Shown here piece after piece: positions 20,928-51,439 of a stretch of DNA of 64,000 bases. How positions within the stretch are numbered: position 1 is the stretch's first letter; each line of letters begins with the position of its first letter. Made by a program: the position numbers and the translations under genes. Below the pieces are notes generated by a model that searched no databases, had not been told where the DNA came from, and saw only the letters and a list, made by a program, of their open reading frames with translations. The stretch comes from Limnomonas spitsbergensis. Lineage: Eukaryota > Chlorophyta > Chlorophyceae > Chlamydomonadales. The DNA is taken from the NCBI GenBank assembly GCA_037349105.1, contig JAYJMM010000116.1, positions 4,774,001 to 4,838,000 on the forward strand, in the 5' to 3' direction.

Positions 20928-23900
20928 TCAGCTATCCTGGCAGCTACCCTGACAGGTTGGCCACCCCCACCTGTGCATTGCACTGAAGGAGTTCATGCTG
21001 GTGCTGACTCGCGGGTCGTAGGCCGGGTTGGTTCTCAGCAGGCTGCTGGTGTCGCCCTTCATCGTCCCCTTCAGGAGATCCAGGTCATCCTGGAGGAGGA
21101 GCGGCAAACATTTCCAATTATGTGTTCGGGTTCTTCCCCTCCTACATTACTGGATGGGGGGGCGACACAATTTCAAATTCCTGTTTCAGGTGAGACACAG
21201 CTTTTCAATGATCGATGATGAAATTGATCCTGTGGGTATATGTGGTATACAATATATTTTTGATGACCGGTGACAGGATACATGCTCTGCTTGTGTGCTG
21301 CTTGTAGAGGACATGCAAGTAGAGCAAGCCCATGGCAGGCCAGCAGCCCAACTCCGCCTCCCAGCTCCCACCACCAAGAAAAAAATCTCCATCTCCAAGG
21401 AGTTGGCCCAGAGCTGCGCTGTTCCCTTAACCCGCACGGCCCTAATGAAACAAACGTATCTTCATTTCTCTGTTGTGGCCTCCCTCCTCCCCCCCCCCCT
21501 CACACTCCTTCCCTTGCGGCTGTGCACCCTGACAGGCCTCACACCTCCACCAGCCTAGAGATAGCTTTCCGTCTCCAGGAGGATATCAAGCGGCGCTGTT
21601 CCCCTAACCCGCACGACCCTACTGAGATATTTTGTTATCCCTTGCCTCGTCTCCCTGCACCCCCCCCCCTCCCAATCCTCCCTGCCCCCCCCCCCCCCCA
21701 ATTCCCACCCCTCCCACCTCTTTCTCCTGGTACTCCTCTTCGCCCTCATTGCGGCTCTTATCTGTGAGGGTCAACAGATAGACGCCGACGAACACAATCT
21801 GCAGGGAGGGGGGGGGCAAGGAGGGAAAGGGGGTGAAGGATCAGGAGGATCCAACAGGAAAGTACTTGTACATGGGTTTCCTTCACCGCCAGGAATCACC
21901 AAAAACACACACAGTCGAAATGGAGGCAGGGCACCATCTGGAAGGGAGGAGGGGTGGGGAATTTATGGTCATAGAGGCCTCATGCGTGGTCTGGCTTGCT
22001 TTTTGAGACGCCAGCCATAGGCCAGTCCAGGTTTTTCCCTATTCAGGCTATCATTGACACCTTGGATGTGACTGCGTAGCAAATGAAACCTGCATGAGCT
22101 CCTTGGTTGATCCCCATAACTCACCGCCACCCCTAGGCCAAATGAAACCTGCATGAGCTCCTTGGTTGATCCCCATAACTCACCGCCACCCCTAGGCCAA
22201 ATGAAACCTGCATGAGCTCCTTGGTTGATCCCCATAACTCACCGCCACCCCTAGGCCAAATGAAACCTGCATGAGCTCCTTGGTTGATCCCCATAACTCA
22301 CCGCCACCCCTAGGCCAAATGAAACCTGCATGAGCTCCTTGGTTGATCACCATAACACACCGCCACCCCTAGGCCAAATGAAACCTGCATGAGCTCCTTG
22401 GTTGATCCCCATAACTCACCGCCACCCCTAGGCCAAATGAAACCTGCATGAGGTCCTTGGTTGATCACCATAACTCACCGCCACCCCTAGGCCAAATGAA
22501 ACCTGCATGAGCTCCTTGGTTGATCCCCATAACTCACCGCCACCCCTAGGCCAAATGAAACCTGCATGAGCTCCTTGGTTGATCACCATAACACACCGCC
22601 ACCCCTAGGCCAAATGAAACCTGCATGAGCTCCTTGGTTGATCCCCATAACTCACCGCCACCCCTAGTCCCAATGAAACCTGCATGAGCTCCTTGGTTGA
22701 TCCCCATAACTCACCGCCACCCCTAGCCCAAACATGGCGCCGCTAAGAGCTGTGAACGTTTTATACTCCTGAAGAGACAGAAGGAGGCAGAGAAGGAGCC
22801 AGGAGTGGGAAATAGCGAGGACAAGGATGCAGCGGCAACGATTGGGGGGCAAGAGGCAACGAGCAAGGAGAGAACAGCAGAGGGGGGCTAATTGTCCACA
22901 TGCAAATGACCTCAATGATGAAGGGGATAGATGTGAGCCTGTGACTGTGTTTCATGACATATGGCGGGGGCAGTGGCGGATCCGGGGCTGATTCAGACAG
23001 CAGGGGACGCTCTTCCTGGGAAAGATGTGCGCCTGTGACTGTGTTTCATGACATATGGCGGGGGCAGTGGCAGATGCGGGGCTGATTCAGACAGCAGGGA
23101 AGCTCTTCCTGGGAAAGATGGGGCCGTGCAGGGAGCCAATAAATTCATACCCCGGTTCACACCTGGAAGTACAGCAGCCCCTCTACGATGGAGAACAGCG
23201 TCCAACAGATCTGCATCAGAGGTACGATGATCATAGCTGGGAACATGCGCAGACTCTGGGAAGGGGAGGGAGGGAGGCGGGGGGAATAAAGGGTGAGGGG
23301 TGAGGGGAAGTGGTACGATGATCATAGCTGGGAACATACGCAGACTCTGGGGGAGTGAGAGGGAGGGAGGCGGGGGGGAATAAAGGGTGGGGGGTGAGGG
23401 GAAGTGGTACGATGATCATAGCTGGGAACATACGCAGACTCTGGGGGAGTGAGAGGGAGGGAGGCGGGGGGGAATAAAGGGTGGGGGGTGAGGGGAAGTG
23501 GTACGATGATCATAGCTGGGAACATACGCAGACCCTGGGGGAGTGAGAGGGAGGGAGGGTACAAATGAAGGGTGGGGGGTGAGCGGGGGCAGGGGGAGAG
23601 AAAGAAAGGATGGGGAGGGATGAGAGGGCACCCGGATCATGGCCAGGAGCATAGGGGGCTGTGACTCTATGCAAGTGTATTTGGGGGCGTGGGAGGTTGA
23701 GGGGTTGGGGGGGGGGGGGGGGGTGGGGGTGCGAGTGTTTGGGGGTGTGGGAGGTTGAGGATGGCACGAGAGCCAAGGATGCGCTGCAGCACATCAACAT
23801 GTTCAAACACATGTACTACCGGCTGTACACAACATGTACTGCTCACCTTATTCAGCCGTGACACCCAGAAGAAAGCCGTGATGATGAAGCAGAGAAGAGT

Positions 23901-26900
23901 GACCCATGTGTACCAGTTACCAAACTGGTTGTCGCCCTGGAAAGAGTGACACAGGCACATTGGGGGTGATGAGCGCCATGCAGGTGTACCAGATGCCAAG
24001 CTGACTGTCGCCCTAAAAGAGTGATGCGGCAAGGACCGAGGCTCCAAGAGTGTGATGATGGGTGGGTCATGATCAGGACCCAATCGACACACGTATATGA
24101 TGTATCTAAAACCAAGGGCCCAGAGACCAACAACCCCCACCTCTCATCTACCTACGTGTAATATAGCCCACCCCACCTCATCGAAACCCAATCTGCCTTG
24201 GGTCCAGTAGTTGAGAAGCAGCCAAGCCCACAGCAGATCTGCATACGTGGGAGACGCCACTCAGCTGAACCCTACCCCCAAACCCATTATGTTTCTTTAT
24301 CATGCCTAGACAAGCAGCCAAGCCCATACTTATATATATCTTACAGCAAATGTCTTGAATAGAAGCACCGACAAGCTCTTGGAAAAGAGGACGCTCTGCG
24401 TTCCGATGAGCGCCGAGAAGATGGAGTAGGAGATGGGCAACAACTGACACCAAGCAGAATGCTGCAGATCCAACAGATTCCTACACAAGACCAGCAGGCA
24501 GGCAAAGCAGGCATGTTGATTTTAAATGCAGGCATCGCAGCTTGATGCAGGCTTCAATCAGCAGCAGCTGCAACCACACAGAGTGTTCGATGCCCAACAT
24601 AATCCTACACAAGACCAGCAGGCAGGCAGGCAGGCGAATTGCTTTTAAATGCAAGCAACGCGACAGGTATCTATCAGCAGCAGTAAACATAAAGAGTGTT
24701 CGAAGTCCAAAAGATTCCTACACATGACAAGCAGGCAGGCAGGCATCTTGGCTTTTAAATGCAGGCATCTTATATTTATCAGCAGCAGCCGCTGATATAT
24801 ACAGAGTGCCCCAGATCCACACCCTTCATGCAAATGAAACAATATATCAGCGGCCAAGTTAAGGGCAGGATCAGCAGGTGGCCCTTAAGCTAGGGTGCTG
24901 CGTACACCTCAGTCCCTCACCATGCACATGGAACCTATCAGTCCCTCACCATGCACATGGAACATATCAGTCCCTCACCATGCACATGGAACATATCAGT
25001 ATTTGTGTGCATCAGACAATTACAGCAGGCCGCTGCATGAATTCAGCTGGGCCAATAAAAACCAACATAGACCCGCTTACGGCCTGATGCCCAACAGCTT
25101 CTGCACCATCCCCCCTGACGGCAGGTCATGGGGTAGCTGAATTGTAGCAGAAGCACCCTAAAGGCTGAACCAGATGCCTGAAGCCGCTCTTCACCTGACT
25201 ATTTCCTTCCCGAGCATGAGTTGCACCTGAAGCACACTAATGAAGACTGGACAAGATCCTGGAAGGACCCTAAAAAAATGAACCAGATACCCTTCGCCGT
25301 CAAGCCGCTCTTCACCTGACTATTTCCTTCCCATGCATGAGTTGTAGCGGAAGCACCCTAACCTAGTATACCCGATACCCGAAGCATCATAAGACTCGAC
25401 CAGATACCCGAAGCACCCTTAAGACTGGACCAGAAACCCGAAGCACCCTAAGACTGGACCCGATCCCCAAAGCACCCTAAGACTGGACACGATACCCAAA
25501 GCACCCTAAGACTGGACACGATACCCAAAGCACCTTAAGATAGTGAACCAGATACCCGTAGCCGTCAAGCCGTCATTTGGGGATCTGGTCCAGTATCTTA
25601 GGGTCCAGTATCTTAGGGTCCAGTATCTTAGGGTCCAGTATCTTAGGGTCCAGTATCTTAGGGTCCAGTATCTTAGGGTCCAGTATCTTAGGGTCCAGTA
25701 TCTTAGGGTCCAGTATCTTAGGGTCCAGTATCTTAGGGTCCAGTATCTTAGGGTCCAGTATCTTAGGGTCCAGTATCTTAGGGTCCAGTATCTTAGGGTC
25801 CAGTATCTTAGGCTCCAGTATCTTAGGGTCCAGTATCTTAGGCATGGAATAGATCGTCCAGCCGCCCCTCACCTGACTATTTTCTTCCCGTGCATGTACA
25901 CCAGGTAGCAACCTATGGCCGTGAGGAACATGAGGACCAGGTAGATGATGTACGCCGGTCTGCAGTACACACAGGCAATACAGGCAATGCAAGTGGTTAT
26001 TGTTGCCAGTCTGCAGTGCACATGGGCAATACATACAATCGGGTTATGTACACCGACTTGCAATACACGGGAAACATGCCATGATGAATTATAGCTTGCT
26101 GTACATTTTGGCAATACAAGTGGTGATTTACGGCAGCTTGCAGTACACCCATATTTACTTGGTGGTGCTCTCATGCAGGTCCATACCTCCATACCCCTGT
26201 CACACTTCTGCCCCCCACACCACTCACTGCTTATACAGGTCGATCAGTTCCTCCACCGTGTACTTAGTGTGCTCTCATGCAGGTCCATACCTCCACACCC
26301 CTGTCACACTTTTGCCCCCCACACCACTCACTGCTTATACAGGTCGATCAGTTCCTCCACCGTGTACTTGGTGGTGCTGTGGTCACCAAACAACACCAGC
26401 AGCATGCAGCCTCCAATGATGCAGGCAGTGGCCAATAGGACCATCCAGGTGATCTACGACAGGGGAAGGGGCAGGTGAGGGGCAAGTGAAGGTGGGGTGA
26501 GATGAAGATGAAGGGGCAGGTCCAGGGATAGGGGAGATGAGCCCCCCCCCGGGGCACTTTAAATACAAGCAAGCATATAACCTCGCTATGATGATACAAG
26601 GAGCGGCCAACAGGGAATCTACGACAGAGGAAGGAGCAGGGGAGGGAAGCATGAGAGAGAGAAAATGTGATAAGAGACAGCCGCCGCATCTTGATACAGG
26701 CAGTGGCCAACAGTAAACAGGAAATCTACGACAGGTGAAGGTGCGGGGGAGGGGAGGGTGAGAGAGGGAAAATGTGATAAGAGACAGCAGCCGCATCTTG
26801 ATACAGGCAGTGGCCAACAGCCAACAGGGATTCTACGACAGGTGAAGGGGCGGGGAGGAGAGGGTGAGAGAGGGAAAATGTGATAAGAGACAGCAGCCGC

Positions 26901-29900
26901 ATCTCGCTGCCTGCCGTCTGAAATAGGGATGTGCCTGCTAACATGTAAACAAGCTTGTCTCCGCCTGCCTGCCCCCTCCTCTGCGTGCCTCCCCCCTTGG
27001 CTTGTATGCCCAGGACCTTGACCTCTCTGCCCCCCTCTCCACCTGTCCCGTGATGATAGAAACATACCTGCACCTATCTCCGACCCCTGCTGCCTACTAG
27101 CTAGCTAGCTAGCACCCCCCATCACCTCTGCTCTGTACCCACATTCCCTCCCCCCCTCCTTACACACACCCTCACCTTTTCCTTGAGGACAGTGGAAGCA
27201 AAAACCACATTGGCCACAAACTGGACTGCTCCCAATGCAGACAGCAGCGACTGCGCCGCAAAGGCTGCACATGAGAACACAAGCATGAGTATGAGCATCA
27301 GCATGACAGGCAACAGCACAATGTGCAGACAAAAGTGACGGTGCTGCACAAAATAGAAGCTTGAGGTAGAGAACAAGCACAAGCATGAGCAAAAGCATGA
27401 GAGCTAGCACGTGCGAGAGGGTGAATACATCATGATCATGAGAAATGTCCGGTGGCAATCTGCAGCCTCCAATCGTGTGATCCCTCCCCTCACAGGACCA
27501 GGAGGCATCCTTTGCACCACATGTCCGGTGGCAATCTGCAGCCCCCAATCATGTGATCCCTCCCCTCACAGGACCAGGAGGCATCCTTTGCACCACATGT
27601 CCGGTGGCAATCTGCAGCCTCCAATCGTGTGATCCCTCCCCTCACAGGACCAGGAGGCATCCTTTGCACCACATGTCCGGTGGCAATCTGCAGCCTCCAA
27701 TCGTGTGATCCCCCCCCTCACAGGACCAGGAGGCATCCTTTGCACCACATGTCCGGTGGCAATCTGCAGCCCCCAATCGTGTGATCCCTCCCCTCACAGG
27801 ACCAGGAGGCATCCTTTGCACCACATGTCCGGTGGCAATCTACAGCCTCCAATCGTGTGATCCCTCCCCTCACAGGACCAGGAGGCATCCTTTGCACCAC
27901 ATGTCCGGTGGTAATCTGCAGCCCCCAATCGTGTGATCCCTCCCCTCACAGGACCAGGAGGCATCCTTTGCACCACATGTCCGGTGGCAATCTGCAGCCC
28001 CCAATCAAGTGATCCCTCCCCTCACAGGACCAGGAGGCATCCTTTGCACCACATGTCCGGTGGCAATCTGCAGCCCCCAATCGTGTGATCCCTCCCCTCA
28101 CAGGACCAGGAGGCATCCTTTGCACCACATGTCCGGTGGCAATCTACAGCCTCCAATCGTGTGATCCCTCCCCTCACAGGACCAGGAGGCATCCTTTGCA
28201 CCACATGTCCGGTGGCAATCTGCAGCCCCCAATCATGTGATCCCTCCCCTCACAGGACCAGGAGGCATCCTTTGCACCACATGTCCGGTGGCAATCTGCA
28301 TCCCCCAATCATGTGATCCCTCCCCTCACAGGACCAGGAGGCATCCTTTGCACCACATGTCCGGTGGCAATCTGCAGCCCCCAATCGTGTGATCCCTCCC
28401 CTCACAGGACCAGGAGGCATCCTTTGCACCACATGTCCGGTGGCAATCTGCAGCCCCCAATCATGTGATCCCTCCCCTCACAGGACCAGGAGGCATCCTT
28501 TGCACCACATGTCCGGTGGCAATCTGCAGCCCCCAATCGTGTGATCCCTACCCTCACAGGACCAGGAGGCATCCTTTGCACCACATGTCCGGTGGCAATC
28601 TGCAGCCCCCAATCATGTGATCCCTCCCCTCACAGGACCAGGAGGCATCCTTTGCACCACATGTCCGGTGGCAATCTGCAGCCCCCAATCGTGTGATCCC
28701 TCCCCTCACAGGACCAGGAGGCATCCTTTGCACCACATGTCCGGTGGCAATCTGCAGCCCCCAATCATGTGATCCCTCCCCTCACAGGACCAGGAGGCAT
28801 CCTTTGCACCACATGTCCGGTGGCAATCTGCAGCCCCCAATCGTGTGATCCCTCCCCTCACAGGACCAGGAGGCATCCTTTGCACCACATGTCCGGTGGC
28901 AATCTGCAGCCCCCAATCGTGTGATCCCTCCCCTCACAGGACCAGGAGGCATCCTTTGCACCACATGTCCGGTGGTAATCTGCAGCCCCCAATCATGTGA
29001 TCCCTCCCCTCACAGGACCAGGAGGCATCCTTTGCACCACATGTCCGGTGGCAATCTGCAGCCTCCAATCATGTGATCCCTCCCCTCACAGGACCAGGAG
29101 GCATCCTTTGCACCACATGTCCGGTGGCAATCTGCAGCCCCCAATCATGTGATCCCTCCCCTCACAGGACCAGGAGGCATCCTTTGCACCACATGTCCGG
29201 TGGCAATCTGCAGCCTCCAATCATGTGATCCCTCCCCTCACAGGACCAGGAGGCATCCTTTGCACCACATGTCCGGTGGCAATCTGCAGCCCCCAATCAT
29301 GCGATCCCTCCCCTCACAGGACCAGGAGGCATCCTTTGCACCACATGTCCGGTGGCAATCTGCAGCCCCCAATCATGTGATCCCTCCCCTCACAGGACCA
29401 GGAGGCATCCTTTGCACCACATGTCCGGTGGCAATCTGCAGCCTCCAATCGTGTGATCCCTCCCCTTACAGGACCAGGAGGCATCCTTTGCACCACATGT
29501 CCGGTGGCAATCTGCAGCCCCCAATCATGTGATCCCTCCCCTCACAGGACCAGGAGGCATCCTTTGCACCACATGTCCGGTGGCAATCTGCAGCCTCCAA
29601 TCATGTGATCCCTCCCCTCACAGGACCAGGAGGCATCCTTTGCACCACATGTCCGGTGGCAATCTGCAGCCCCCAATCATGCGATCCCTCCCCTCACAGG
29701 ACCAGGAGGCATCCTTTGCACCACATGTCCGGTGGCAATCTGCAGCCCCCAATCATGTGATCCCTCCCCTCACAGGACCAGGAGGCATCCTTTGCACCAC
29801 ATGTCCGGTGGCAATCTGCAGCCTCCAATCGTGTGATCCCTCCCCTTACAGGACCAGGAGGCATCCTTTGCACCACATGTCCGGTGGCAATCTGCAGCCT

Positions 29901-32900
29901 CCAATCATGTGATCCCTCCCCTCACAGGACCAGGAGGCATCCTTTGCACCACATGTCCGGTGGCAATCTACAGCCCCCAATCATGTGATCCCTCCCCTTA
30001 CAGGACCAGGAGGCATCCTTTGCACCACATGTCCGGTGGCAATCTGCAGCCCCCAATCATGTGATCCCTCCCCTCACAGGACCAGGAGGCATCCTTTGCA
30101 CCACATGTCCGGTGGCAATCTGCAGCCCCCAATCGTGTGATCCCTCCCCTCACAGGACCAGGAGGCATCCTTTGCACCACATGTCCGGTGGCAATCTGCA
30201 GCCCCCAATCATGTGATCCCTCCCCTCACAGGACCAGGAGGCATCCTTTGCACCACATGTCCGGTGGCAATCTGCAGCCCCCAATCGTGTGATCCCTCCC
30301 CTCACAGGACCAGGAGGCATCCTTTGCACCACATGTCCGGTGGCAATCTGCAGCCTCCAATCGTGTGATCCCTCCCCTCACAGGACCAGGAGGCATCCTT
30401 TGCACCACATGTCCGGTGGCAATCTGCAGCCCCCAATCATGTGATCCCTCCCCTCACAGGACCAGGAGGCATCCTTTGCACCACATGTCCGGTGGCAATC
30501 TGCAGCCCCCAATCATGTGATCCCTCCCCTCACAGGACCAGGAGGCATCCTTTGCACCACATGTCCGGTGGCAATCTGCAGCCTCCAATCGTGTGATCCC
30601 TCCCCTCACAGGACCAGGATGCATCCTTTGCACCACATGTCCGGTGGCAATCTGCAGCCCCCAATCGTGTGATCCCTCCCCTCACAGGACCAGGAGGCAT
30701 CCTTTGCACCACATGTCCGGTGGCAATCTGCAGCCCCCAATCGTGTGATCCCTCCCCTCACAGGACCAGGAGGCATCCTTTGCACCACATGTCCGGTGGC
30801 AATCTGCAGCCCCCAATCGTGTGATCCCTCCCCTCACAGGACCAGGAGGCATCCTTTGCACCACATGTCCGGTGGCAATCTGCAGCCCCCAATCGTGTGA
30901 TCCCTCCCCTCACAGGACCAGGAGGCATCCTTTGCACCACATGTCCGGTGGCAATCTGCAGCCTCCAATCATGTGATCCCTCCCCTCACAGGACCAGGAT
31001 GCATCCTTTGCACCACATGTCCGGTGGCAATCTGCAGCCTCCAATCATGTGATCCCTCCCCTCACAGGACCAGGAGGCATCCTTTGCACCACATGTCCGG
31101 TGGCAATCTGCAGCCCCCAATCGTGTGATCCCTCCCCTCACAGGACCAGGAGGCATCCTTTGCACCACATGTCCGGTGGCAATCTGCAGCCTCCAATCAT
31201 GTGATCCCTCCCCTCACAGGACCAGGAGGCATCCTTTGCACCACATGTCCGGTGGCAATCTGCAGCCTCCAATCATGTGATCCCTCCCCTCACAGGACCA
31301 GGAGGCATCCTTTGCACCACATGTCCGGTGGCAATCTACAGCCCCCAATCATGTGATCCCTCCCCTTACTGGACCAGGAGGCATCCTTTGCACCACATGT
31401 CCGGTGGCAATCTGCAGCCCCCAATCATGTGATCCCTCCCCTCACAGGACCAGGAGGCATCCTTTGCACCACATGTCCGGTGGCAATCTGCAGCCCCCAA
31501 TCGTGTGATCCCTCCCCTCACAGGACCAGGAGGCATCCTTTGCACCACATGTCCGGTGGCAATCTGCAGCCCCCAATCATGCGATCCCTCCCCTCACAGG
31601 ACCAGGAGGCATCCTTTGCACCACATGTCCGGTGGCAATCTGCAGCCTCCAATCGTGTGATCCCTCCCCTCACAGGACCAGGAGGCATCCTTTGCACCAC
31701 ATGTCCGGTGGCAATCTGCAGCCCCCAATCATGTGATCCCTCCCCTCACAGGACCAGGAGGCATCCTTTGCACCACATGTCCGGTGGCAATCTGCAGCCT
31801 CCAATCGTGTGATCCCTCCCCTCACAGGACCAGGAGGCATCCCTTACAGGACCAGGAGGCATCCCTCACAGGACCAGGAGGCATCCCTCACAGGACCAGG
31901 AGGCATCCTTTGCACCACATGTATACTGGAGTTGTCGGCAAAGGAGCATATCGGAAAGACCATGCGTGTGATCAAAGATTCGCTGACCTCTCCCATCCCC
32001 CCCTCATTGGTCAGGGGTCATCCCTTCCACCAAATTTCTTGGGAGATCAATCCGGCTAAACTTGTGATGTATCAAGCTGTATCTACCTTACACCGCATCC
32101 ACACAGATCTCCTCCTCCCACCCGCCCAAAAACGACGCATCCGTCCACTCACCATAGGATGCAAAGCTGGCGAGGGTGCCGACAACAAATACATCCCCCA
32201 CACCACATCCACACCACATCCACACCAATATCCACACTAATATCCGTCCACTCACCATAGGATGCAAAGCTGGCGAGGGTGCCGACAATAAACACAAAGA
32301 TACCAATCTGCCAGCTGGGGAACTTCCTGCAGAAAGAGATCAAGGGTGCAGGGTGAAGGGTCAGGGTTTAGGGCCAAGGTTAAGGGTTAAGGTTTAATGG
32401 CAGGGTTAAAGGTCAGGGTTTAAGGCCAGGGTTTAAGGGTTAAGGTTTAAGGTCAGGGTTTAAGTTCAGTGTTTAAGGTCAGGGTGAAAGGTCAGGGTTT
32501 AAGGTCAGGGTTTAAGGCCAGGGTTTAAGGTCAGGGTTTAAGGTCAGGGTTTAAGACCAGGGTTTAAGGTCAGGGTTTAAGGTCAGGGTTTAAGGCCAGG
32601 GTTTAAGGCCAGGGTTTAAGGTCAGGGTTTAAGGTCGGGGTTTAAGGCCAGGGTTTAAGGCCAGGGTTTAAGGTCAGTGTTTAAGGTCAGGCTTTAAGGC
32701 CAGGGTGAAACGTCAGGGTGAAAGGTCAGGGTTTAAGGTTAGGGTTTAAGGTCAGGGTTTAAGGTCAGGGTTTAAGGCCAGGGTTTAAGGCCAGGGTTTA
32801 AGGTCAGGGTTTAAGGCCAGGGTTTAAGGCCAGGGTTTAAGGCCAGGGTTTAAGGTCAGGGTTTAAGGTCAGGGTTTAAGGCCAGGGTTTAAGGTCAGGG

Positions 32901-40366: not shown

Positions 40367-40668
40367 CAATAGGAGCAGGGTTCCGGTGGCAGTGTTAGGA
40401 GTGTTGGCCTGAGGGGCATGTTCAAGCTGCCTCTTGGGCCCTTGTTCGTTGCCCAAGTCCTGGAGAGATCCTGACCTTGACCTTGCCCAATGACGGGTGG
40501 AATGAGGATGAGGATGATCGGGACAATTTGTGGCAAGCGGTGCTTGATTTGGCCGACGACCATCATGTGACATCTTGACTGAGACTCCTTGACTGTAAGG
40601 TTATGAGCCCTAATACCGTACTGCTCCGTATGTAGCCATCCGTACTGCTTGCATCATGAATACTGGGT

Positions 40669-40694
40669 GCAGACAGAGCTACGGCCCTGTCTGC
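40669..40694. other. Perfect 8-bp stem hairpin
   Basis: GCAGACAG and CTGTCTGC are separated by 10 bases. Located about 300 bp after the end of the Gln/Glu-rich gene; function unknown. Confidence 0.4.
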
Positions 40695-41001
40695 ATCCGG
40701 GGGTTACTTACTAGAAGTCCCGGTGTTGGCTGGTTGCCTTCTGCTTATCTCAATCCTATACGAGGTACTCGGAGTTGGGTTCGACTCCCAAAACATCACT
40801 TCTCTAGTAAGCATCTTGTACAGCCATGGTAGCCATGAATATACCGAACATGTCAAATATACCAACATACTTGGTTGCCGAAACTTTTAGATATTAAAAA
40901 GGTACAAACATATGACGCTTGCGTGTCACGAAACGCTCGCTCCCGCTCGCGACATGTACTTGTGGGGCGGAGGCGTTAACCGCCATCAGTCTGCTTGGTG
41001 T

Positions 41002-41232
41002 GTGTCTTGCTTTAGGGTTAAGGGTTCTACAGTTTGGTGTGTTCCTTGCTTTAGGGTTCAGGTTTCTACTGTTTGGTGTGTTTCTGAATTTAGGGTTCAG
41101 GGTTCTGCTGTTTGGTGTGTTTCTTACTTTAGGGTTCAGGGTTCTACTGTTTGGTGTGTTTCTTACTTTAGGGTTCAGGGTTCTACTGTTTGATGGGTGT
41201 CTTGCTTTAGGGTTCATGGTTCTGCTTTTTGT
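41002..41232. repeat. 39-bp telomere-like minisatellite, about 6 copies
   Basis: Units contain TTTAGGGTTCAGGGTTCTAC and GTTTGGTGTGTTTCTT. The TTTAGGG heptamer is intact in each unit. Both strands stay open through the array because the period is a multiple of three. Confidence 0.93.
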
Positions 41233-42361
41233 GTGTTTCTTACGTTTCTCTTTGTTGGGGGCTGTGATCTTGACTGCCCAATGGTTCTTCGGACTTCCTT
41301 CTACTTTTTGAGATGGCCTTTTCCTTCTCATTTTCCGTCTTTGCCTTGCTCTTCTAGGCTTAAGTTCGTTTTTCTCCCGGCTAGACACTCAGTTAGGCAC
41401 CCATGTGGCCGAGCCTTTGCAGCCTTGTGGACAACAATGACCCTGACTAAGAGGAAGCATGAAAGCTGAATTTTCGAACAATTCCAGGGTACACAAAATC
41501 ATGGGTCGAAAACAGCTAGGCCCTGGCATGCCAGCTACCCTTCATCTCTGCACTAAGGGCCTTGCTCTTAAGTCCCGGCCGCCAGGCCCTAGCTGATGTC
41601 TCCCACGGATCTTATCAAAGGAATTTGTGTACTCTGGAATACCAGGGTCGAGAATTTGAGGGATGGATTTAAAATGGCCTCCCTACAAGTGATAAATCAT
41701 CAGACAGATTATAAGCCCGGAGGAAAACATTCAATCATCAGACATATTATAAGCCCGGAGGAAAAAATTCAGACTGCCTACACCTGATCCCTGACTCTAC
41801 GACGAAGCACGGAGGCCTGCCCAACGCTGCATAACTGTATCTAGTTAGCTAGATGCGAGGCCATGGCCTCCACTGACGCTGCCAATAAGGGATGCATTAC
41901 CAATCAGGATGTCCGACAGAAGCACCATGTTTTGAATCGCTTTCAACCCGGCATGCAACTAAGGGTCGGTACAAAGTGAGCGCATTTATCTCATTGCCTT
42001 CTTCGGAGGGGCCAGGCAGCAGTGCACAACGAACAATAACGAAATGCTCATCCATGTCAGTAACGTTACACCTCTGGGCCCGCTCAAAGCTCATCCATGT
42101 CATCCTAAGAGAACACCATTTAATACATTCGACATCACAATGAAGTGAGGGGCAGGAGCATGATGGGAACAGAGTGTTCACGCTCGCTTGCTGAGTCAAG
42201 GAACATGGATGGTGGAAGCAGAAAGTCAACAACACATGAACGGAAGCCAACCAGCCAGACCGTATGACGCCAGTATGTACAACAGTACAGACGCGCAATG
42301 GCGGTACACAGGCTGTACAAGGGTTGAATGAGTCACGGCTAGGATACAGGGTTCAGGGTTT
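41233..42361. other. No recognisable gene
   Basis: About 1.1 kb of intergenic-looking sequence between convergent genes. The only structure is a 45-bp direct duplication at about 41,690-41,780 sharing ATTATAAGCCCGGAGG. Confidence 0.5.
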
Positions 42362-45300
42362 TTATTGCTGTCGCCAGGACCTCGATAAACTGAGGGGCTG
42401 TGGGGACCTGTTCCGTCCTGCTCCCCAGCTGCCGCCCCCTCCGCCTCCGCTGTTCCCACCGCTGCCCATCTGGCCCAGCAACGCACCTCCAGCAGCAGCT
42501 GCAGCAGGGGAGAACAGCAACTTAATAAATTGATACCGCACAGTAGCACCAAAGGCCTATCCCAAACGATCAGATACAAGTCTTACACCTTCAGCACCCT
42601 GCTTGTGAATGCACCTGCTGACTCCCCCCTACTGCTGCTGCTGCTGCATGGATGCCTGTAGGAAGAGTTGCATCTTGGCCTAACGATGAGACTGCTGCGA
42701 CAAGTTCACCCAATAGTTAATACTGAATCCAGTCATGTTGTTGCTATGAGTCATGAGCGCCCAACCCTTGCTACTAAGGATGATCCTTCTTCCACACGCT
42801 TGTTGGCCGCGCGAGAGTCTCCCCCGTCATGCGCCGCCTCTCCCTTGCGCACCTGCTGCATAGTTAAAGTTGTAATGGGCTGCACCACTGCCCGGTCTGC
42901 CTGATGCCGCACTACCACCGCTGCCAGGCCTGCCTGCAGCCGCAGCCGGTGATGCCCACGGCATGTTTCCCAGCGGGGAGGCAGGCCACGTCGGTTGGGT
43001 TAAGGGGCCTGCCGGGCCGCCACTGCTAGGCATGCCAGGCAGGCCCACACCTCCTCCTCCCTCCCCTTCATTGCCTGGCTGGGACATGTTGCCGTCCTGC
43101 AGGCGGACGGGGCCGTCCTCAAGAGGAGGGGCGCCCCAGGCATGCTGGCGGGCAGATGGGATCTGCTGCTGCTGCTGCTGCATCTGCTGCTGCTGGTTGG
43201 CCTGACAGAGGGGGGCAGCGGAGCAAAACAGTTGATATGTGCGTCAGTCACATTGGTACGTTCAATAACCCTCACCAACCCACTCTTTTAGCTCCCCCTC
43301 CGACACACCTGCTCTCCCCCGAACACCTGCTCCCTCCTCGGCTCTCCTCTTCCCTTAATCTTCGACCCCATGATCGCTGCAATGCTTGCCTGACCCCTCC
43401 TCGGGGTTACCATGTAGGCCCTAATCCCTAAACCCTCATCACCCGACCCCTCCTCGGGGTTGCCATGTAGGCCCTAATCCCTAAACCTTCATCACCCGAC
43501 CCCTCCTCGGGGTTGCCATGTAGGCCCTAATCCCTAAACCCTCATCACCCGACCCCTCCTCGGGTTGCCATGAAGGCCCTAATCCCTAAACCCTCATCAC
43601 CCGACCCCTCCTCGGGGTTGTCATGTAGGCCCTAATCCCTTAACCCTCATCACCTGATTCCTCTTCAGGTGACTTTATAGAGGTTTATGCCCTAATCCCT
43701 GAACCCTCATCACCTGGCTCCTCCTCAGGGCATACATGTAGGCCCCCAGGGATGCGGCAGTCGGCCCAGTGGACACCAATGTCCGTTCCGGTTGTTGCAG
43801 CAGCAGGCGGCTAGGCGGCGAATACAGCGCCTGAGGGTAATACAACGACGCGGAGGAGGCAGACTTGGGCAGCGGGGGAGGACGCCAGGTGCTGATAGGG
43901 TTGGGTGCACCCGCCCCCCCTGCGCCAGCAGATGAGGAGCGCTCGTGGGAAGAGGTGCTGGACACGCGACTGTAGACGTCGCCCAAGGCAGCAGCAGCAG
44001 GGGCACGGGCGTAGCTGGGGCTTGCTCCGAAACCCACTCCGTAATCCCCTGCTGCGGCTCCGTGCCCCTCCCTAGGGATTGGGACCGTAGCAGCAGGTGG
44101 CGCCATGCTGTTCATAGTGGACCACTGAGAGGGATGTGACGCGGCCTGGGAGCCATCACGCCTCGGTAATGGAATCCAATCATGGGCCAGGTGTGGCTGC
44201 TGTTGCTGCTGCTGTTGTTGCTGTTGCTGCTGCTGTTGTTGCATCCATGGATGTTGTTCGGCAGGCTGATGATGTTGTTGCTGTTCTTGTTGCTGCTGTT
44301 GCAACAGCTGTTGTTGCATCCACGGGTGTTGCGCAACATGTTGTTGTTGTTGTTGCAGGCTTGGGTTGAAGGTCGGTAGCGGGATCCAGTCGTTGCGAAG
44401 AGCCATCGCCTGTTGTTGCTGCTGCCACACCGCCTGTTGCTGCTGTTGCTCCTGTTGTTGCAGGTGTTGCGGAGAGGACAGGGGCAGCCAGGAGTCAGCG
44501 GGAAAGCCCCCGGCGTAGGAGGGGCTGTGCGGGCGGCCATGTTGCTGGTCTGGCCTCTGTTGTTGAGGTAGCTGCTGCTGCTCTTGTCGCCGACTTCGAG
44601 GATGGCCCGCCTCCACACGCCCTCCCTCCCCCACCTGCCTATACCCCTCCTGGTCGTCGTCCTCCTCATCCTCCCAGGAGTCCTCCTCTGGGGGGGCAGG
44701 GCGCCGATTGCCACGCTGACCTGCATCTCCTCCCCTTGTCCCTCCTGGGCCGCCTTCAGCTCGTCTCCCTGTCCCTGCTGTCCCCCCTGTCCCTCCTGCT
44801 GCTCCTTCCTGGGTGCTGCCGAATGGGGTCTTCCCTGGAAAGGGGGTGGCAGCCTGCTGCTCGGAGGAGGCCTTGCTGCCGAAGCGGGAGCGCGGGGCTT
44901 GCTTGACATGCTGATCGTCCCCGGATAGGTCCGGGGAAGCACCCAAGGGGGGGTAGACAGGGGGGAGACAAGGGTTGAGGGCCTTGATGGGGAAGGGGAG
45001 GGGGAGGCGCCTGAGGGGGCAGGCAGGGGGGTAACGGGTCTTAAGGGCATCAGGATGGAAAGGGGAGGGGGAGGGGGAGGGGGAGGTGGAGGTGGAGTGG
45101 GGGGGGGGGTTGGGGAGGATGGGGATGGGGACAGGCCTATGGGTGCAGGCAGGGGAGAGGCAGACAAGGGTTTGTGCCTTTATTGCTTTCATGGTGAGTG
45201 AGCCAGGAGAGGAAGGGGAAGGGGGACGGGCCTATGGGGGCAGACAGGAGAGGATACCGACAAGGGTTGATGGCCTTCATGGGAGGTGATCCAGGAGGGG

Positions 45301-48300
45301 GAGGGGGAGGGCGAGGGGCCTAAGCGGACAGGCAGAAGTCGGGGGCAGGAAGGAGGGCTTGAAGATGAAGTATTGATAATTCAGGGAGGGTGTCAGCACT
45401 ATCCTGTATCCCCCGCTAGACCCCAAAAGGGCCTTTTATTCGGCGCGGTATTCCCCCACCTCAGGTGACCTGGCAGGCGGCAATTTTCGCATTGCATAGC
45501 TGAATGAAACACAGCATTGTAAGACACACAGCTTTTTATTTGCAATGATCTAAGAGAGAGCACAGAGATCACGACTGAATGAATAGGCTGGCTGAGCGCG
45601 ACACCATGCAGCATTCAGTGCAACGAGGCGTTGAATCACATGAACACGACGTTTGGTCCAGACTGATCCAACTGAAAGCAGATCGACGCTACGCGCCTCG
45701 AAGCCTCACATCAGAGCTCGATTTTCCGAAACAAACTGCTCGGCTGAATATCTGGCCATATGCTCGGTATACCCCCGGGATCGTATAACCTTAACTTATT
45801 TCCCATACCAAAGAAGCTTCACGTCCCTTGCCCTTCCTCAGATTTCCATTCCTTTCCTTTTCCCACTCCTAACACCTAACCATGCTTGTCTGAATGCGAC
45901 CCGGGAGGGGTACTCCTGGCTGCTGATGCCCCCCCCGCTGACTTCCTGTCAACGCTTCCTTTAATTCCCCATCCTGCCCCTGAACCCTGACCACACTCGC
46001 CTGAATGTGACCCGGGAGGGGTACTCCTGGCTGCTGATGCCCCCCCCGCTGACTTCCTGTCAACGCTTCCGTTAATTCCCCATCCTGCCCCTGACCCCTG
46101 ACCACACTCGCCTGAATGTGACCCGGGAGGGGTGCTCTTGGCTGCTGCTCCTGCTGCCGATGCCAACTTTCTGTCAACACTGCCTTCCGCTGCCGATCGC
46201 CGATCAAAGCCAAATGGGGATGCACGTCCACTGCTAGTCTCGCCCTCGCTTGTCAGAGCCTAGGGCAGGGAAAAGAGGGGGAGGGAGGGACACTATTGAG
46301 ATAAAGTAGAGTGTAAGGAAGATAGGTTTGATGGCTTTAATGTCAAGTTCATAACAGCTAATAGTACTGGCGCAGGAGCCCCCCCCCCCCCCTCCCATCT
46401 GCATGGCTCTCCCTTGGATTTTTGCCCCCTTTCCGCTGCTGCTGCAACTGTCACCCTACTAGCACCTGACCCAACGATGGTCTTATAGCCCAGTCCAGCC
46501 CAGCCCAGTCATAACGCGTCATTGCGCAAGCCCAGAGGGCCCCCCGCTCCTACCAGCATGGCCTTCCTCTGCATATTTGCCCTTTGCTGCCGCTTCTGAT
46601 GGTCTCACCCTGCTGGGTCCCGACTCAATGATCGTGCTGAGGCCGCTCTCATCAATCATGTCATAGCTCAAGCGCAGCCCCCCCCCCTCCCCCCCCCTCC
46701 CTCCCTCATAGCTCTCACCCTGCTGGGTCCAGATTCAATGATGGTGCTGAGTCCGCTCTCATCAATGGTAATGGAGGCCTCCTTGATGGTACTCAGCTGC
46801 ATGCTCCTCAACAGATCAGGGGGAGCCACCTCCTGTGAAGGGGGACACAAGTGGCAGCACATCGCTGACTTAGATATAGTAGGAAGATCAAAACAATGTA
46901 CCTAGCTCAGTGTTGCTCGGACAGCGTATCATATCATCAATGTCCCCCTGCCCACACTTTTCATCAGCGTCCCCCCTGTCCACACTTTGCATCAGTACCA
47001 AGTTCAGTGTTGCTCAGACGGAGTATCATTTCAAGGTGGCTCATACCCGACAGGTCCCAGATTGAAAGCCCTGTTCAACAGACCGCCCCGCCCGAGTGTG
47101 ATCAGTGGGCACAAGCACAGTCTAGCGGGGCTAGGAGAGCTCAGATGTCACGAAGAATCAGTGAACCTTCAGTATCACTGAACCAGGAAACGACTAGAGG
47201 AGTGTTAAGAGCCCTTACCAAGGGATTCCCAACTGTGAGCAGTGGGCACAAACACAGTCTGTTGCCAGCCCTGATTCGTGGGAAGGGCCTGCCTGAAAGG
47301 CCCTCAAGCCCGACCCCCTAGGGGGGAAGAACCTTCCTCAACCCTTCGGATGGCCCAGGCAGCAAATCATCAGTTCCCACACTTTCCATCCACACTTTTA
47401 CACCCACCTCAGGGTGGAACCTGGATTGGGGTAGTGCTGACATGATGTGGTCTGCGCTGTGCGGGTCTTGCCCCTGCTGCTGCTGGGCTGTCCCGCCTCC
47501 TCCTCCCCCCTGCTGCTGTTGCTGCTGCATGGATGCGCGCAGGGAGCGTTGCATTTTGGCCTTACGATGCGACTGCTGCGACGAATTGACCGAATAAACA
47601 CTGAGTCCAGTCATGTTGTTGCTGTGACCTAGTCCCACAGCCTGTGCCAGGCAGGGGAGGAGGGCAAGGGGGTGGTATGAGTTCACACCAAGTCCAGTCA
47701 TGTGGCTGCTTGGTCCTAGCCCCACAGCCTGCGCAATCAGGGGAGGAGGGCAAGGGGGTGGAATGAGTTCACACGAAGTCCAGTCATGTGGCTGCGGTGA
47801 CCTAGTCTCACAGACTGTCATGATGGATCAGGTGATGGAGCAGGGCAGGGGGGGAGGGGTGAATATGCAGTGATGTCAGTCATGTGGCTGTTGTGATGAA
47901 AGTTTCATGCTAGTCCACAGGGCAGCCCGGTTCGGGAGCAGGGTAGGGCCGGGAATAGACCACAAGTATGCTAGTTGCATGCTAAGCTCACTGCCTGTCA
48001 AGACAGGGGAACTGGGAAGCAAGATAAAGGCTATAGTATACATTGTCGGCTGGACTATCAGCGTGATAGCCATGATCGTTTTTGATACAGCCACGCGGGA
48101 ACAGGAGCAAGTGTGGCTAGCTTGCGGTGTGGCCCATTAGCCTGTGTCCCAATGTCTGCTGATTTACCTGAGCTGCGCTGTTCTCCACACCCTCATGCCC
48201 CGGAAACAGGGGCATCCTCCCTTCCCCACCCCTCAGCCTTCTTTCTTGCCAGCCAGGGAGGGCATTGCTCACTTCCCTTCCCCTCTTTTTCACCTCTTCC

Positions 48301-51300
48301 TTTCTTGTCGGCCATAAGGGGGCATAGTCCCTTTCCCTTTCCCCCTGCTGCTTGTTTTTTTGCCGGCCAGCGTTGGACATTGTTCTTATTCACCCCACAT
48401 CTTTCTTCCCCTCTTTCTTGCCGGCCAGGGGGGGAGTTGTTAATTTCCCTTCCCCCTTTTCATTTCCTCTTTCATGCCGATTACCCACCTGTTTGGCCGC
48501 ATCCATGTCGGAGAATTCCACCTTGGACATTGTTCTTATTCACCCCTCTCTTTCTTCCCCTTTTTCATGCCGATGACCCACCTGTTTGGCCGCATCCAGG
48601 TCGAAGAATTCCACCTTGGACAGCTTCTTTTGAACCAGCTTGGCACCCTTCTTCAAGGAATGCAGCCTGAAGTACAAGGCAAGTCAGGGCAATCAGCTGG
48701 GTAGGGGGCGAGGGGGGTTCCTCCAGTCAGGGGCAATGAAGGTATGGCTCATTGCCTCCATGATGCGGGTGGGACTCCAAGGGGTTCCCCCAGTAAGCAG
48801 TGGGGGGCACTGATAAATGGGCATTACCCAGGGCATTAATGGGCATTAATGAACATTACCCGGGGCATTAATGGGCATTACCCGGGGCATTAATGGGCAT
48901 TACCTGAGGCATTAATGGGCATTACCTGAGGCATTAATGGGCATTACCTGAGGCATTAATGGGCATTACCCGGGGCATTAATGGGCATTACCTGAGGCAT
49001 TAATGGGCATTACCCGGGGCATTAATGGGCATTACCTGAGGCATTAATGGGCATTACCCGGGGCATTAATGGGCATTACCCAGGGCATTAATGGGCATTA
49101 ATGGGCATTACCCGGGGCATTAATAGGCATTAATGGGCATTAATGGGCATTACCCGGGGCATTAATGGGCATTACCCGGGGCATTAATGGGCATTACCTG
49201 AGGCATTAATGGGCATTACCCGGGGCATTAATGGGCATTACCTGAGGCATTAATGGGCATTACCTGAGGCATTAATGGGCATTACCCGGGGCATTAATGG
49301 GCAATACCCGGGGCATTAATGGGCATTAATGGGCATTACCCGGGGCATTAACCGCCAGTCCTCAAGAGCTCACCCACAAAGCCCTGTTGTGATCTTGGCC
49401 ACCGTCGGGATGTGTGGAGCCCCTGTGGTTGAGAGCATGCACCCTAAACCCTCACTCCAGCACCCACATGGAGGTGGGTGGGACCAGGTTGCAACCCTCA
49501 CTCCAGCACCCACATGGAGGTGGGTGGGCACAGGTTGCAACCCTCACTCCAGCACCCACATGGAGGTGGGTGGGACCAGGTTGCAACCCTCACTCCAGCA
49601 CCAATTACAGAGGTATGGTGATCTTTGGTGCCTTCAATGTGGGAGGTACCAGAGGGGTGCCGGGTTAAAGCGTCAGCCCTGATTCCCTGAACACCACACC
49701 CACACTGAGCTCTTGCAATCTTCACCCGCTTGTGTGCTGCCTGAGTGGTGCATGTTTTCTGCCCTAGACCCTCACACCATCACTCATATGGAGGTGTCCT
49801 GACCTTTGCCGCCTTCAATGTATCCCTCAAAACCCCACCCAAAATGCGCTGTTGTGATCTCCACCGCCGTCGAGGTTTGTGGAACCAGAGTGGTGCGGTT
49901 TTATGCCCTCAACCCTCGCTCTTGCACCCAAATGGAGGTGTCCTGCTTCTGGACTCCCTCAATGAGTCCCTCAACACCCCACCCACAATGAGTTGTTGTG
50001 ATCTTCACCACCGTCGAGGAGCACCGAGCCTGAGCGGTGCATCTCTGTTGAGCCCATGTGGTCGTGCATGTAGGCGCCACCACCGCTACCGTGGTGGCCT
50101 TGACCTGGTAGGTGTGAACAGTGTGGGGATGGTGTGAACGTGAACATTGGAAATTCACACATGTTGCTGTTCATGCTGGCCCAGTCAGTCCACGCAAGGC
50201 AGGGTCACCTAGGGTAGGGGTAAGAGAGACATCAGTATTGGGCTCATAGAAAAAATGCAGCTGTTCATGCCGGCCATGAGCCCAATCCATACCAGCTCTT
50301 CATCAGTCCACCTGGGTCATGGGTGAGAGAGAAACCCCTGGAGCCATACATGGGGAACAAACGCTGTCTGCATGGCACATGGCATATCTCTATGCCTTGA
50401 ACTGCAATATGATGGTGTGGCCCTGAGGAGCTAAGGTGGTGCTGCCAGCGAGTTCAGGGCTGACCCAAGGCGTTTAATTGTAACGATAAAAAATAAAATG
50501 ATAAAATGTGTCACCGCATTCATATCCTTGGCAGCAGCCCGTCCGTAACAGTCTCAGTCTAGACCAGCTGCTGTTCACTGGTGAGAGAACGCACCTTCCA
50601 CACTATCTCGTAGTCCTTGTTTGCCCGATGCTGCGTATGAACATGTGAGAGGGGTGTGTGATACTCTAGGGGAAAAAGGTGACAATCTGGGGACTCAAGT
50701 GATAATGTGTGGCAATGTGTGGAATCAGCTGGAAAGTTGTGAAATCTAGTGACCATGTGTGGCAATGTGTGGACTCACGTGACACTGTGCGGCGATTCGT
50801 GGGTGACAGGGTGCTGGCCAGACCTAATGAGGGGAGAGAGGGGGGGGAAGGGGGGGGGAGGGGACATTAATCAGTACAGGAGGAGGAGGAAGGTCAATCT
50901 CTGCCTGATAAGGGGTGAGAGGGAAGAGGGGCAGGGATCAGGGGGGCAGAGCATCAGGAGGACGCGTCCCCTCTGTCACCAATCCCTGGTAGCAGTACAG
51001 TCACACGAAGTGCATCTGCTAGCAGTACGGTCGAACTACGTGCAGCAGCTAGCAGTTTGGTAATACTTAGTGCAACAGCCAGCAGTACTGCCACACTACT
51101 GACAGCAATGCGCATCACAGTGACACATCACAGGGAGCTGCAAGGCCGTTGTCTCGGTATTAGGCGAGTGGCAGCCATTGGCAACCAGTAGGGGGAGTCG
51201 AAAGGCATTCGGACTGGCGATTTCAGCATACAAACTGGCCGAAAGAAGTTGGGGCGCCGAGGGCGCGAGCCCATAATATCCAGTTCTCACACAGTGGGCT

Positions 51301-51439
51301 CCTAGAAGATAATTTAAAATCAGAAATACGGCACCGGGCGCTCCATCACTCACTTCCCACTTGGAGGGTGGAGTCCAGTATGGACATCTTGCGCGCCTTG
51401 CCTGGGGTGACCGGATGTGGGTCGATAACGGAGCCAGAC
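42362..51439 (-). CDS. Unrecognised Gln/Gly/Ser-rich protein, about 10 exons, 5' end missing
   Basis: Exons in transcript order: 51439-51354, 50630-50595, 50104-49987, 48666-48582, 47641-47408, 46832-46719, 46260 to about 46115, about 44920-43714, 43201-42853, 42498-42362 (TAA stop at 42364-42362). GT-AG sites and phases agree at every clearly bounded junction, including the 36-bp micro-exon. About 830 residues are read. Segments in order: ARKMSILDSTLQVG, a His/Gly stretch (GGGAYMHDHMGSTEMHRSGS), a basic helix-like stretch (LKKGAKLVQKKLSKVEFFDL), a poly-Gln/Gly exon, an acidic/Ser exon (STIKEASITIDESG), a long exon of Gln runs with two HPWMQQQ blocks and repeated DWIPLP, and a Gly/Ser-rich C terminus. 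No enzymatic domain or membrane segment is seen; it is probably a disordered scaffold or regulatory protein. The first exon lies upstream of 51,439 and was not found. Confidence 0.72.
42596..42760 (-). pseudogene. Decayed dispersed copy of the poly-Gln exon
   Basis: Positions 42,640-42,760 match 47,515-47,625 (the middle of exon 47641-47408): a run of CTG triplets, GCATGGATGC, TTGCAT-TTGGCC, GACTGCTGCGAC and CCAGTCATGTTGTTGCT in the same order with many substitutions. It sits in the last intron of the same gene, about 4.9 kb downstream of its source. Confidence 0.8.
43395..43713. repeat. 53-bp minisatellite made of an exon 3' end plus donor
   Basis: About six copies abutting the large Gln-rich exon. 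On the gene strand each holds CCCGAGGAGGGGTCGG then GTGATGAGGGTTTAGGG, mirroring the true junction CCTGAGGAGGAGCCAG|GTGATGAGG. The intronic part includes a telomere-like GGGTTTAGGG. Confidence 0.94.
44200..44470. repeat. CAG/CTG-rich coding microsatellite (poly-Gln)
   Basis: Several interrupted CAG/CAA runs on the minus strand encode Gln tracts of up to about 15 residues within the large exon of the Gln-rich gene. Mixed CAA/CAG usage makes the runs less slippage-prone than pure CAG. Confidence 0.9.
45888..46170. repeat. About 100-bp tandem repeat of an exon 3' part
   Basis: Three copies share GACCCGGGAGGGGTACTCCT and TGACTTCCTGTCAACGCTTC (plus strand). On the gene strand they copy the end of exon 46260-46115 (SVDRKLASAAG ... 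STPPG) plus the following intron. Confidence 0.9.
46595..46718. repeat. Duplicate of an exon 3' end plus donor
   Basis: At 46,600-46,665 the gene strand reads ATTGATGAGAGCGGCCTCAG, then GGACCCAGCAGG and a GTGAGAC donor, a diverged copy of the end of exon 46832-46719 (DESGLSTIIESGPSR). It is separated from the real junction by C-rich sequence. Confidence 0.92.
47642..47825. repeat. 94-bp repeat of an acceptor plus exon 5' end
   Basis: Two extra copies upstream of exon 47641-47408 carry, on the gene strand, GCTGTGGG-CTAGG, then an AGCAAC/AGCCACATGACTGGACT stretch: the acceptor and first 45 or so bases of the exon (AVGLGHSNNMTGL). Confidence 0.92.
48470..48581. repeat. 112-bp duplicate of an exon 3' end plus donor
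   Basis: The gene strand at 48,495-48,535 reads TCCAAGGTGGAATTCTCCGA, then GATGCGGCCAAACAG and a GTGGGTAATCGG donor. This copies the end of exon 48666-48582 (SKVEFFDLDAAKQ). Confidence 0.93.
48811..49352. repeat. 22-bp minisatellite in intron
   Basis: About 24 copies of units composed of GGGCATTACCCGGGGCATTA plus AT, with a CCTGAGG variant. Located between exons 50104-49987 and 48666-48582. Confidence 0.96.
49440..49605. repeat. 47-bp tandem repeat, about 3.5 copies
   Basis: Units contain CCCTCACTCCAGCACCCACA and TGGAGGTGGGTGGG. Confidence 0.93.
49640..49986. repeat. Degenerate repeats of an exon 3' end plus donor
   Basis: Decayed copies of the end of exon 50104-49987 (VLLDGGEDHNNS plus a GTGGGTGGGG donor) lie at about 49,835-49,880 and near 49,690. 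A further trace (TTGTGATCTTGGCCACCGTC) is at 49,387. Confidence 0.8.
50989..51105. repeat. About 33-bp degenerate tandem repeat, 4 copies
   Basis: Units contain AGCAGTA-GGTC and ACTACGTGCAGCAGCT-like sequence. Confidence 0.75.

Follow-up and report, generated by a model that had tools for sequence, protein, structure and literature searches.

We examined a 64,000-nucleotide window of the genome of the Arctic snow alga Limnomonas spitsbergensis (contig C116, positions 4774001-4838000), in which two genes on the minus strand, here called gene 1 and gene 2, carry intronic tandem repeats that are copies of the exon-intron junctions beside them. The published assembly comprises 260,248,090 bases in 124 contigs with a GC content of 54.15% and was made from polished PacBio continuous long reads (CLR); full-length transcripts (IsoSeq) exist for the species and its mean intron length is 788 bases (PMC11228838). 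The window copy of each gene is denoted W, and paralogs elsewhere in the genome are denoted A, B and C. Gene 1 was modelled as 12 exons whose in-frame join yields a NIPA8-like magnesium transporter (PF05653, E value 9e-32), and a protein search with the product found green algal relatives at up to 61% identity. Exons 2 (35571-35641), 3 (32256-32326), 4 (27176-27264), 5 (26332-26453), 6 (25873-25959), 7 (24345-24480), 8 (23847-23936) and 9 (23163-23255) were matched by tblastn with the eight orthologs shown, exons 5 to 9 being placed by frame and splice signals as well, and the ends of the matches mostly lay only a few bases from the modelled exon ends, their starts sometimes overrunning into the intron. 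Exon 10 (22715-22768), modelled from frame and splice signals, was matched weakly by three of the eight orthologs, and in the same comparison no match was found for exons 1, 11 and 12. Exons 11 (21718-21798) and 12 (20971-21089, the last of the modelled part) also follow frame and splice signals and, like exon 10, are present in paralogs A and B, where exon 10 is 100% and 94% identical. Exon 1 of the modelled part (36551-36580) was placed by frame and splice signals only, and the 5′ end of the gene lies beyond it.

Self-comparison of the gene 1 exons and their flanks showed copies of an exon edge in the adjoining intron at 10 of the 22 internal junctions, belonging to exons 1, 2, 3, 5 (both edges), 6, 7, 8, 9 and 10, with an exon part of 8-47 nt; within the gene, no copy of either edge was found for exons 4, 11 and 12. 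Donor edges recur downstream, and acceptor edges upstream, of their exon. On the donor side, the edge of exon 1 recurs at 36417-36455 (105 bp, two copies, 10 nt of exon, 90%), that of exon 2 forms an array at 34821-35594 with a 39-bp unit in about 20 copies holding up to 27 nt of exon each, and that of exon 3 recurs at 32139-32193 (103 bp, two copies, 41 nt of exon, 96%). Exon 5 has a donor-side duplication at 26156-26378 (104 bp, two copies, 47 nt of exon), exon 6 has, 534-691 bases beyond its downstream end, two decayed donor-edge copies at 25182-25339 (24 nt of exon, 88-89%), and exon 10 has a donor-side array at 22080-22732 (59 bp, 11 copies, 18 nt of exon), which is single in paralog B. 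On the acceptor side, the array of exon 5 at 26609-26904 has a unit of about 107 bp in three intronic copies with up to 37 nt of exon, one of them with only 8 nt, and the array of exon 7 at 24470-24769 has a unit of about 113 bp in two intronic copies. The acceptor edge of exon 8 recurs at 23981-24024 (75 bp, two copies, 32 nt of exon, 82%), and that of exon 9 forms an array at 23221-23586 (94 bp, four copies of which three are intronic, 38 nt of exon). A first-pass annotation of this DNA had claimed that the intronic repeats are copies of the adjoining splice junction, and the self-comparison bore this out: all seven sites that it had listed in gene 1 were correct, although the unit at donor 32256 measured 103 bp and not 105, and three further sites absent from its list (acceptors 26453 and 24480, donor 25873) were found.

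Assignment of gene 2 to a known family was tried and set aside, two pieces of it having no Pfam match and a protein search having returned no homolog. Two further copies of the gene 2 locus were found, A (C116, 6.32-6.33 Mb) and B (C25, 0.49-0.50 Mb), and the probable exons, defined by splice signals and identity between copies, are 95.8-100% identical to A or B, as against 91.4-96.1% for three intron stretches. Because these ranges touch (the probable exon 49987-50104 is 96.6% identical in B), the support for the gene 2 exons is modest, and two probable exon ends used in the repeat comparison (46120 and the start of the last exon) are, by their sequence, not real splice sites. The probable exon at 49987-50104 is followed downstream by three decayed donor-edge copies; that at 48582-48666 has a donor-edge copy at about 48458-48529 with a 93-bp unit, the junction being represented by 22 sites in paralog B; and that at 46719-46832 has a donor-edge copy 110 bp downstream that holds 48 nt of exon at 93%. 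The exon ending at 43714 has a donor-side array at 43392-43680 (53 bp, four intronic copies, six sites including the junction itself), and the exon starting at 47641 has an acceptor-side array at 47604-47817 (86 bp; three sites in W, eight in A and seven in B). All five gene 2 sites proposed earlier were thus present, with units shorter than had been stated at 48582 (93 and not 112 bp) and 47641 (86 and not 94 bp); donor 50779 (77%) is a weak additional case.

The pattern had been predicted to extend beyond these two genes, and junction copies were indeed found in 20 of 61 introns across 14 loci that the first-pass annotation had not picked (hereafter unchosen loci): paralog C of gene 1 on C24, nine CCT loci (L024-L032), a Cpn60 pair (L033/L034) and two loci with tRNA-synthetase exons (L035/L036). 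Together with window gene 1, copies were present in 29 of 72 introns, in 30 clusters of which 14 lay at donors and 16 at acceptors, each search being made within the locus itself. CCT genes were located with PF00118 and their exons modelled from the matches, and the tRNA-synthetase exons were obtained via PF00133; of the 72 PF00118 matches, 57 served as exon anchors, six lay in the Cpn60 pair, which was modelled from peptides, and nine lay in other loci and were unused. Introns between non-adjacent hidden Markov model (HMM) matches were excluded from the counts, and the loci were chosen for many matches in few kb, which biases the sample toward shorter introns. Junction-crossing copies occurred in five of the nine CCT loci (L024, L029, L030, L031 and L032); no copies were found in L025, L026 and L028, and L027 had one exon-edge copy without an intron part. 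The first modelled intron of L024 has, by reading frame, a GC-AG border. The Cpn60 pair, which we take to be of the chloroplast type, gave continuous peptide-modelled translations and had copies at five junctions by the cluster count, and the exons of L035 and L036 had no junction copies and were included in the counts. L029/L030 and L033/L034 are paralog pairs and thus not fully independent. The units of the 29 listed clusters were 39-164 bp, and one more case had an offset of 359; these values are smallest offsets, which in the window gene were chosen manually for four clusters, and are not the true unit in some clusters (the exon 9 array of paralog C and the decayed exon 6 copies). Some exon-internal matches stay clear of the junction, for example one to exon 4 of L029 that lies 252 bases downstream (73%).

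Paralog C, which is 71-83% identical to gene 1 in the compared exons, has arrays at the donors of exon 5 (129 bp), exon 6 (73 nt of exon, 106-bp units), exon 7 (133-bp units) and exon 10 and at the acceptor of exon 9 (90-bp units, about 10 copies); the start of its exon 7 was modelled 23 bases too far downstream, and the clusters counted there are unaffected. Four of these junctions, the donors of exons 5, 6 and 10 and the acceptor of exon 9, carry arrays in the W lineage as well with different units, and since unit lengths and exon parts differ, the comparison points to separate origins of the arrays in the two lineages.

In order to compare these counts with chance similarity, the introns were dinucleotide-shuffled while six bases after the donor and four before the acceptor were kept. 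Three rounds with all 72 introns gave 0, 0 and 2 clusters and no cluster that included a junction, as against 47 clusters in the real introns, of which 30 included a junction and 17 were intron-only; therefore, the similarity of introns to their exon edges exceeds chance similarity. The expectation that introns with junction copies are longer also held in the unchosen loci, where their median was 652 bases versus 402 for the others (P = 0.011). Of the 50,345 intron bases examined, 20.2% lay in junction arrays and 17.9% in intron-only arrays. The corresponding shares were 21.7% and 49.7% in window gene 1, and 19.6% and 4.9% in the unchosen loci.

Comparison of paralogs showed that the copy number of junction arrays differs strongly among recent duplicates, six compared intron stretches of which are 0.5-9% diverged; the difference is between paralogs and not between alleles. 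Sites resembling the window junction numbered, in W, A and B respectively, 2, 4 and 22 at donor 48582 and 3, 8 and 7 at acceptor 47641 of gene 2, and 11, 11 and 1 at the exon 10 donor, 3, 3 and 1 at the exon 6 donor and 4, 2 and 4 at the exon 9 acceptor of gene 1, and many other junctions were single in all three copies alike. Of 11 arrays compared, 8 had intronic copies closer to each other than to the authentic junction, and the other three did not. Intron 9 of paralog A (C116:6309186-6317720) contains about 40 matches at a spacing of about 188 bp to a repeat that in the window is a two-copy, 94-bp and purely intronic one. Copies of gene 1 and gene 2 lie close to one another at C116 6.30-6.33 Mb and at C25 0.49-0.52 Mb, with gene 1 preceding gene 2, the reverse of the arrangement in the window. 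In the stretches examined, paralog A matched only part of exon 5 and none of exons 1-4, and paralog B matched none of exons 1-3; the 5′ parts of these two gene 1 paralogs may be broken or further away.

The copies largely retain the splice signals, as had been claimed for every one of them: GT was kept in 104 of 108 donor copies and AG in 32 of 39 acceptor copies, and the remainder lacked it, in a count for which the alignment had to cross the junction and which includes a few doubtful edges. Because most copies retain GT or AG, the decoy splice sites show no sign of having been purged. Unit lengths were multiples of three in 13 of 29 clusters, which is no clear preference, and therefore the copies are not kept as coding sequence. 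As the spliced product matches homologous proteins, the splice site contiguous with the exon is presumably the one used. Comparison of W with paralog C revealed no new intron, all seven comparable positions being common and exon 7 differing in length by one codon, and none was seen in the Cpn60 pair, in which all eight positions are common to both paralogs.

The name 'mirages' was given to tandem repeats that cross the exon-intron borders of amphioxus Adh3, and such repeats are described also in the globin genes BflGb6 and BflGb9 (PMC3087553), in PGBD5 and, as cited there, in TnC (PMC3902484). The algal arrays resemble them in that the repeats span the boundary, 5′ and 3′ boundaries are both affected and many intronic copies retain splice signals (PMC3087553, PMC3902484), and the algal units of 39-164 bp agree with the published mirage range of 10-160 bp. 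Length instability, which in amphioxus appears as variation of repeat number among haplotypes (PMC3087553), is seen in the alga between paralogs and not alleles (2, 4 and 22 or 11, 11 and 1 sites), and the concerted evolution of mirages, which excludes the authentic copy, is shown by 8 of the 11 algal arrays and not by the other three. Somatic instability is reported as well for the mirage of amphioxus Adh3. Normal splicing of the amphioxus mirages is reported from reverse transcription PCR (RT-PCR; PMC3087553), whereas in the alga it is presumed, and the amphioxus cases were described gene by gene in a cephalochordate, whereas in the alga 29 of the 72 introns examined are affected. The algal arrays have the testable defining features of mirages, except that their homogenisation is mixed; they are real, they are common in the sampled genes, and they clearly represent, in a new lineage, a kind of repeat that is known but has been little studied. 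Junction repeats are not mentioned in the consulted parts of the L. spitsbergensis genome paper (PMC11228838) or of work on long Chlamydomonas introns (PMC8226300), and a search of the open-licence literature, outside which most subscription papers lie, yielded no account of arrays of this kind from green algae.

Other known systems are less close. The Rogers model and the potato RdRp case have in common with the algal arrays a tandem duplication that includes splice-site sequence, and the potato duplication also crosses an intron-exon border (PMC4974935); there, however, the new intron takes in former exon sequence, whereas the algal copies lie inside introns that were already present, with no new one found. 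Introners, for example those of Amoebophrya and Micromonas, are likewise repeats tied to introns and splice sites, but they are alike between unrelated introns (PMC7789003), whereas each algal unit matches its own exon edge. In a genome search with window positions 22600-23300, a single stretch that contains several arrays and for which the best candidates were scored, all of the 64 matches listed fell in the locus itself or in its paralogs on C116, C25 and C24. Intron sliding and exon duplication in Drosophila likewise involve duplications around splice sites that shape gene structure, but that study concerns moved or new intron positions (PMC2891723), of which none was seen in the alga.

We consider it probable that these arrays are mirage-type minisatellites that arise by frequent small tandem duplication, are tolerated at junctions and then undergo ordinary minisatellite turnover. 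Segments of about 40-160 bases would often be duplicated in tandem in this genome. By their position, some units span a donor or an acceptor, so that an exon part is copied together with its splice site into the intron, and on the intron side only. Such duplications would be tolerated, since the splice site contiguous with the whole exon would stay in use; the intronic copies, which hold no more than 10-77 nt of exon and lack a partner site, would be skipped by exon definition, in which whole exons are recognised. The paralogs show that arrays, once present, expand and contract like other minisatellites, and the copies appear largely to homogenise; the greater length of the introns would be a by-product of array growth. 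The presence of intron-only arrays alongside the junction arrays (17 of 47 clusters) speaks for this reading, as does the position of the junction-crossing copies in gene 1, gene 2 and the unchosen loci: within the locus searched, they are downstream of their exon at donors and upstream of it at acceptors.

How far the junction is a preferred target was assessed by a placement test, in which the chance that a duplication of unit length u that touches an intron spans one of its two junctions by at least 8 exonic bases was taken as approximately 2(u-8)/(I0+u), where I0 is the original intron length. This test omits gene 2 and paralogs A and B of gene 1, which are near copies of the window gene; its strict rule requires the alignment itself to cross the junction with 8 exonic and 4 intronic nt. 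Several results weigh against duplication without regard to the junction. Of the 28 clusters in the 61 introns of the unchosen loci, 20 included a junction compared with 10.8 expected at random (P = 1e-4), or 15 versus 10.3 under the strict rule (P = 0.04). Restriction to copies of at least 85% identity gave 15 of 16 versus 7.4 (P = 5e-5; strict, 11 versus 7.1, P = 0.03), and restriction to at least 90% gave 10 of 11 versus 5.3 (P = 0.002; strict, 8 versus 5.1, P = 0.06). The exon side of acceptors was covered by duplications more (0.21-0.27) than the adjacent intron side (0.17-0.20), and the exon fraction was at most 0.72 in all 29 units and below half in 21 of them, unlike uniform placement (P = 0.004), in a test that uses smallest offsets, some of them rough. 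With the window gene added, the count was 30 of 47 clusters versus 16.9 expected, or 25 versus 16.1 under the strict rule (P = 0.003). Chance placement thus accounts for about half to two thirds of the junction cases, and much of the association with junctions arises because the introns are short and the units near 100 bases; the pooled excess is 1.5- to 2.0-fold depending on the rule, which leaves room for a junction preference of up to about twofold. The exon half of old copies stays recognisable longer, because it is compared with constrained sequence and the intron half with free sequence, and this may explain part of the excess, less so under the strict rule. Duplication coverage at the exon edge was about as high as in the adjacent intron and dropped within 40-80 nt into the exon, as is expected of units of this size placed regardless of the junction.

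These data bear directly on the chief rival, in which the junction is a hotspot: transcription or splicing would, through breaks, R-loops or stalled spliceosomes, give rise to duplication of the DNA around splice sites, and introns would grow from their ends inward. We regard this as possible but unlikely. The excess was present in every gene set (1.6- to 2.5-fold in single sets under the plain rule), junction arrays exceeded intron-only arrays in their share of intron length in the unchosen loci as given above, and the W lineage and paralog C were hit at the same four junctions with different units. However, coverage at the junction does not peak above that of the intron interior, the excess in the unchosen loci weakens to P = 0.03-0.06 under the strict rule, intron-only arrays fill more of the window gene than junction arrays do, and the constraint on the exon keeps old exon-derived copies recognisable longer. 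Nor is the agreement between W and C unlikely by chance (a probability of about 0.13, calculated by hand): it concerns four of the five junctions hit in C, and the W lineage itself is hit at 7 of 14. A hotspot was therefore set aside as the main explanation, about half or more of the cases being expected at random and coverage showing no junction peak, and the junction-directed process proposed at first is partly supported, random placement already giving 10.8 of the 20 cases. That tandem duplication in this alga favours splice junctions through a link with transcription or splicing, introns growing from their ends by copying of exon edges and being seeded with spare sites, appears doubtful to us; if true, junction-directed duplication would drive the lengthening of introns throughout the lineage and would supply raw material for new exons and introns.

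Intron gain under way, in which duplicated AG/GT segments become new introns or exons, had been suggested by the first-pass annotation, and a route from mirage to new intron has been proposed for amphioxus (PMC3087553). The retention of GT or AG in most intronic copies would provide the raw material, and the potato case did arise from a duplication across an intron-exon border (PMC4974935), but this explanation is very improbable here, since the intron positions of W and C (7 of 7) and of the Cpn60 pair (8 of 8) are identical and the counted copies sit inside existing introns. We give hardly any credence to repeats maintained by selection as spare or regulatory splice sites: GT and AG are kept slightly more often than the bases at most positions nearby, with per-junction means of 0.94 and 1.00 at donors and of 0.94 and 0.87 at acceptors, but the difference is small and the alignments had to cross the junction, arrays are gained and lost between paralogs with an intron divergence of 0.5-9%, and the unit lengths are divisible by three in only 13 of 29 cases. 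An artefact of assembly or of exon calling is the least credible explanation of all, for although collapsed or expanded arrays are possible in a polished CLR assembly (PMC11228838) and gene 2 has no homolog found, the exons of gene 1 and of the CCT and Cpn60 loci are backed by protein homology or peptide continuity, with exact edges set by splice signals near the match ends, arrays recur at the same junctions in separate paralogs, those of C having units of a different sequence, and many cases are two copies of about 100 bp, far below read length.

If mirage-type duplication is genome-wide in L. spitsbergensis, it would provide many natural tests of what follows when the authentic splice site has between 2 and some 50 duplicates next to it, where amphioxus mirages are known, as far as described, from single genes. 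Such cases would bear on which copy is used, on exon definition in green algae, on the rate of array turnover and on the origin of new exons and introns. They also carry a warning for annotation, as ab initio tools may put exon ends in the wrong copy.

Eight random stretches (L016-L023, 80 kb) were given no exon models and were used only for inspection of coding candidates; one of them, L017 (C30:300001-310000), has long open frames packed densely on both strands, and their translations give the impression, and no more than that, of a giant-virus insertion. Within the window itself, the same coding-like stretch with a 21-bp repeat occurs at about 4422-4875 and 7833-8286, some 3.4 kb apart, which suggests a direct duplication. 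An open frame on the minus strand at about 58890-59070 looks, by a motif, like the reverse transcriptase of a long terminal repeat (LTR) retrotransposon. One 34/35-bp minisatellite, unrelated to the modelled exon edges, forms long arrays at window positions 10577-20595, 54060-56058 and 62074-64000.

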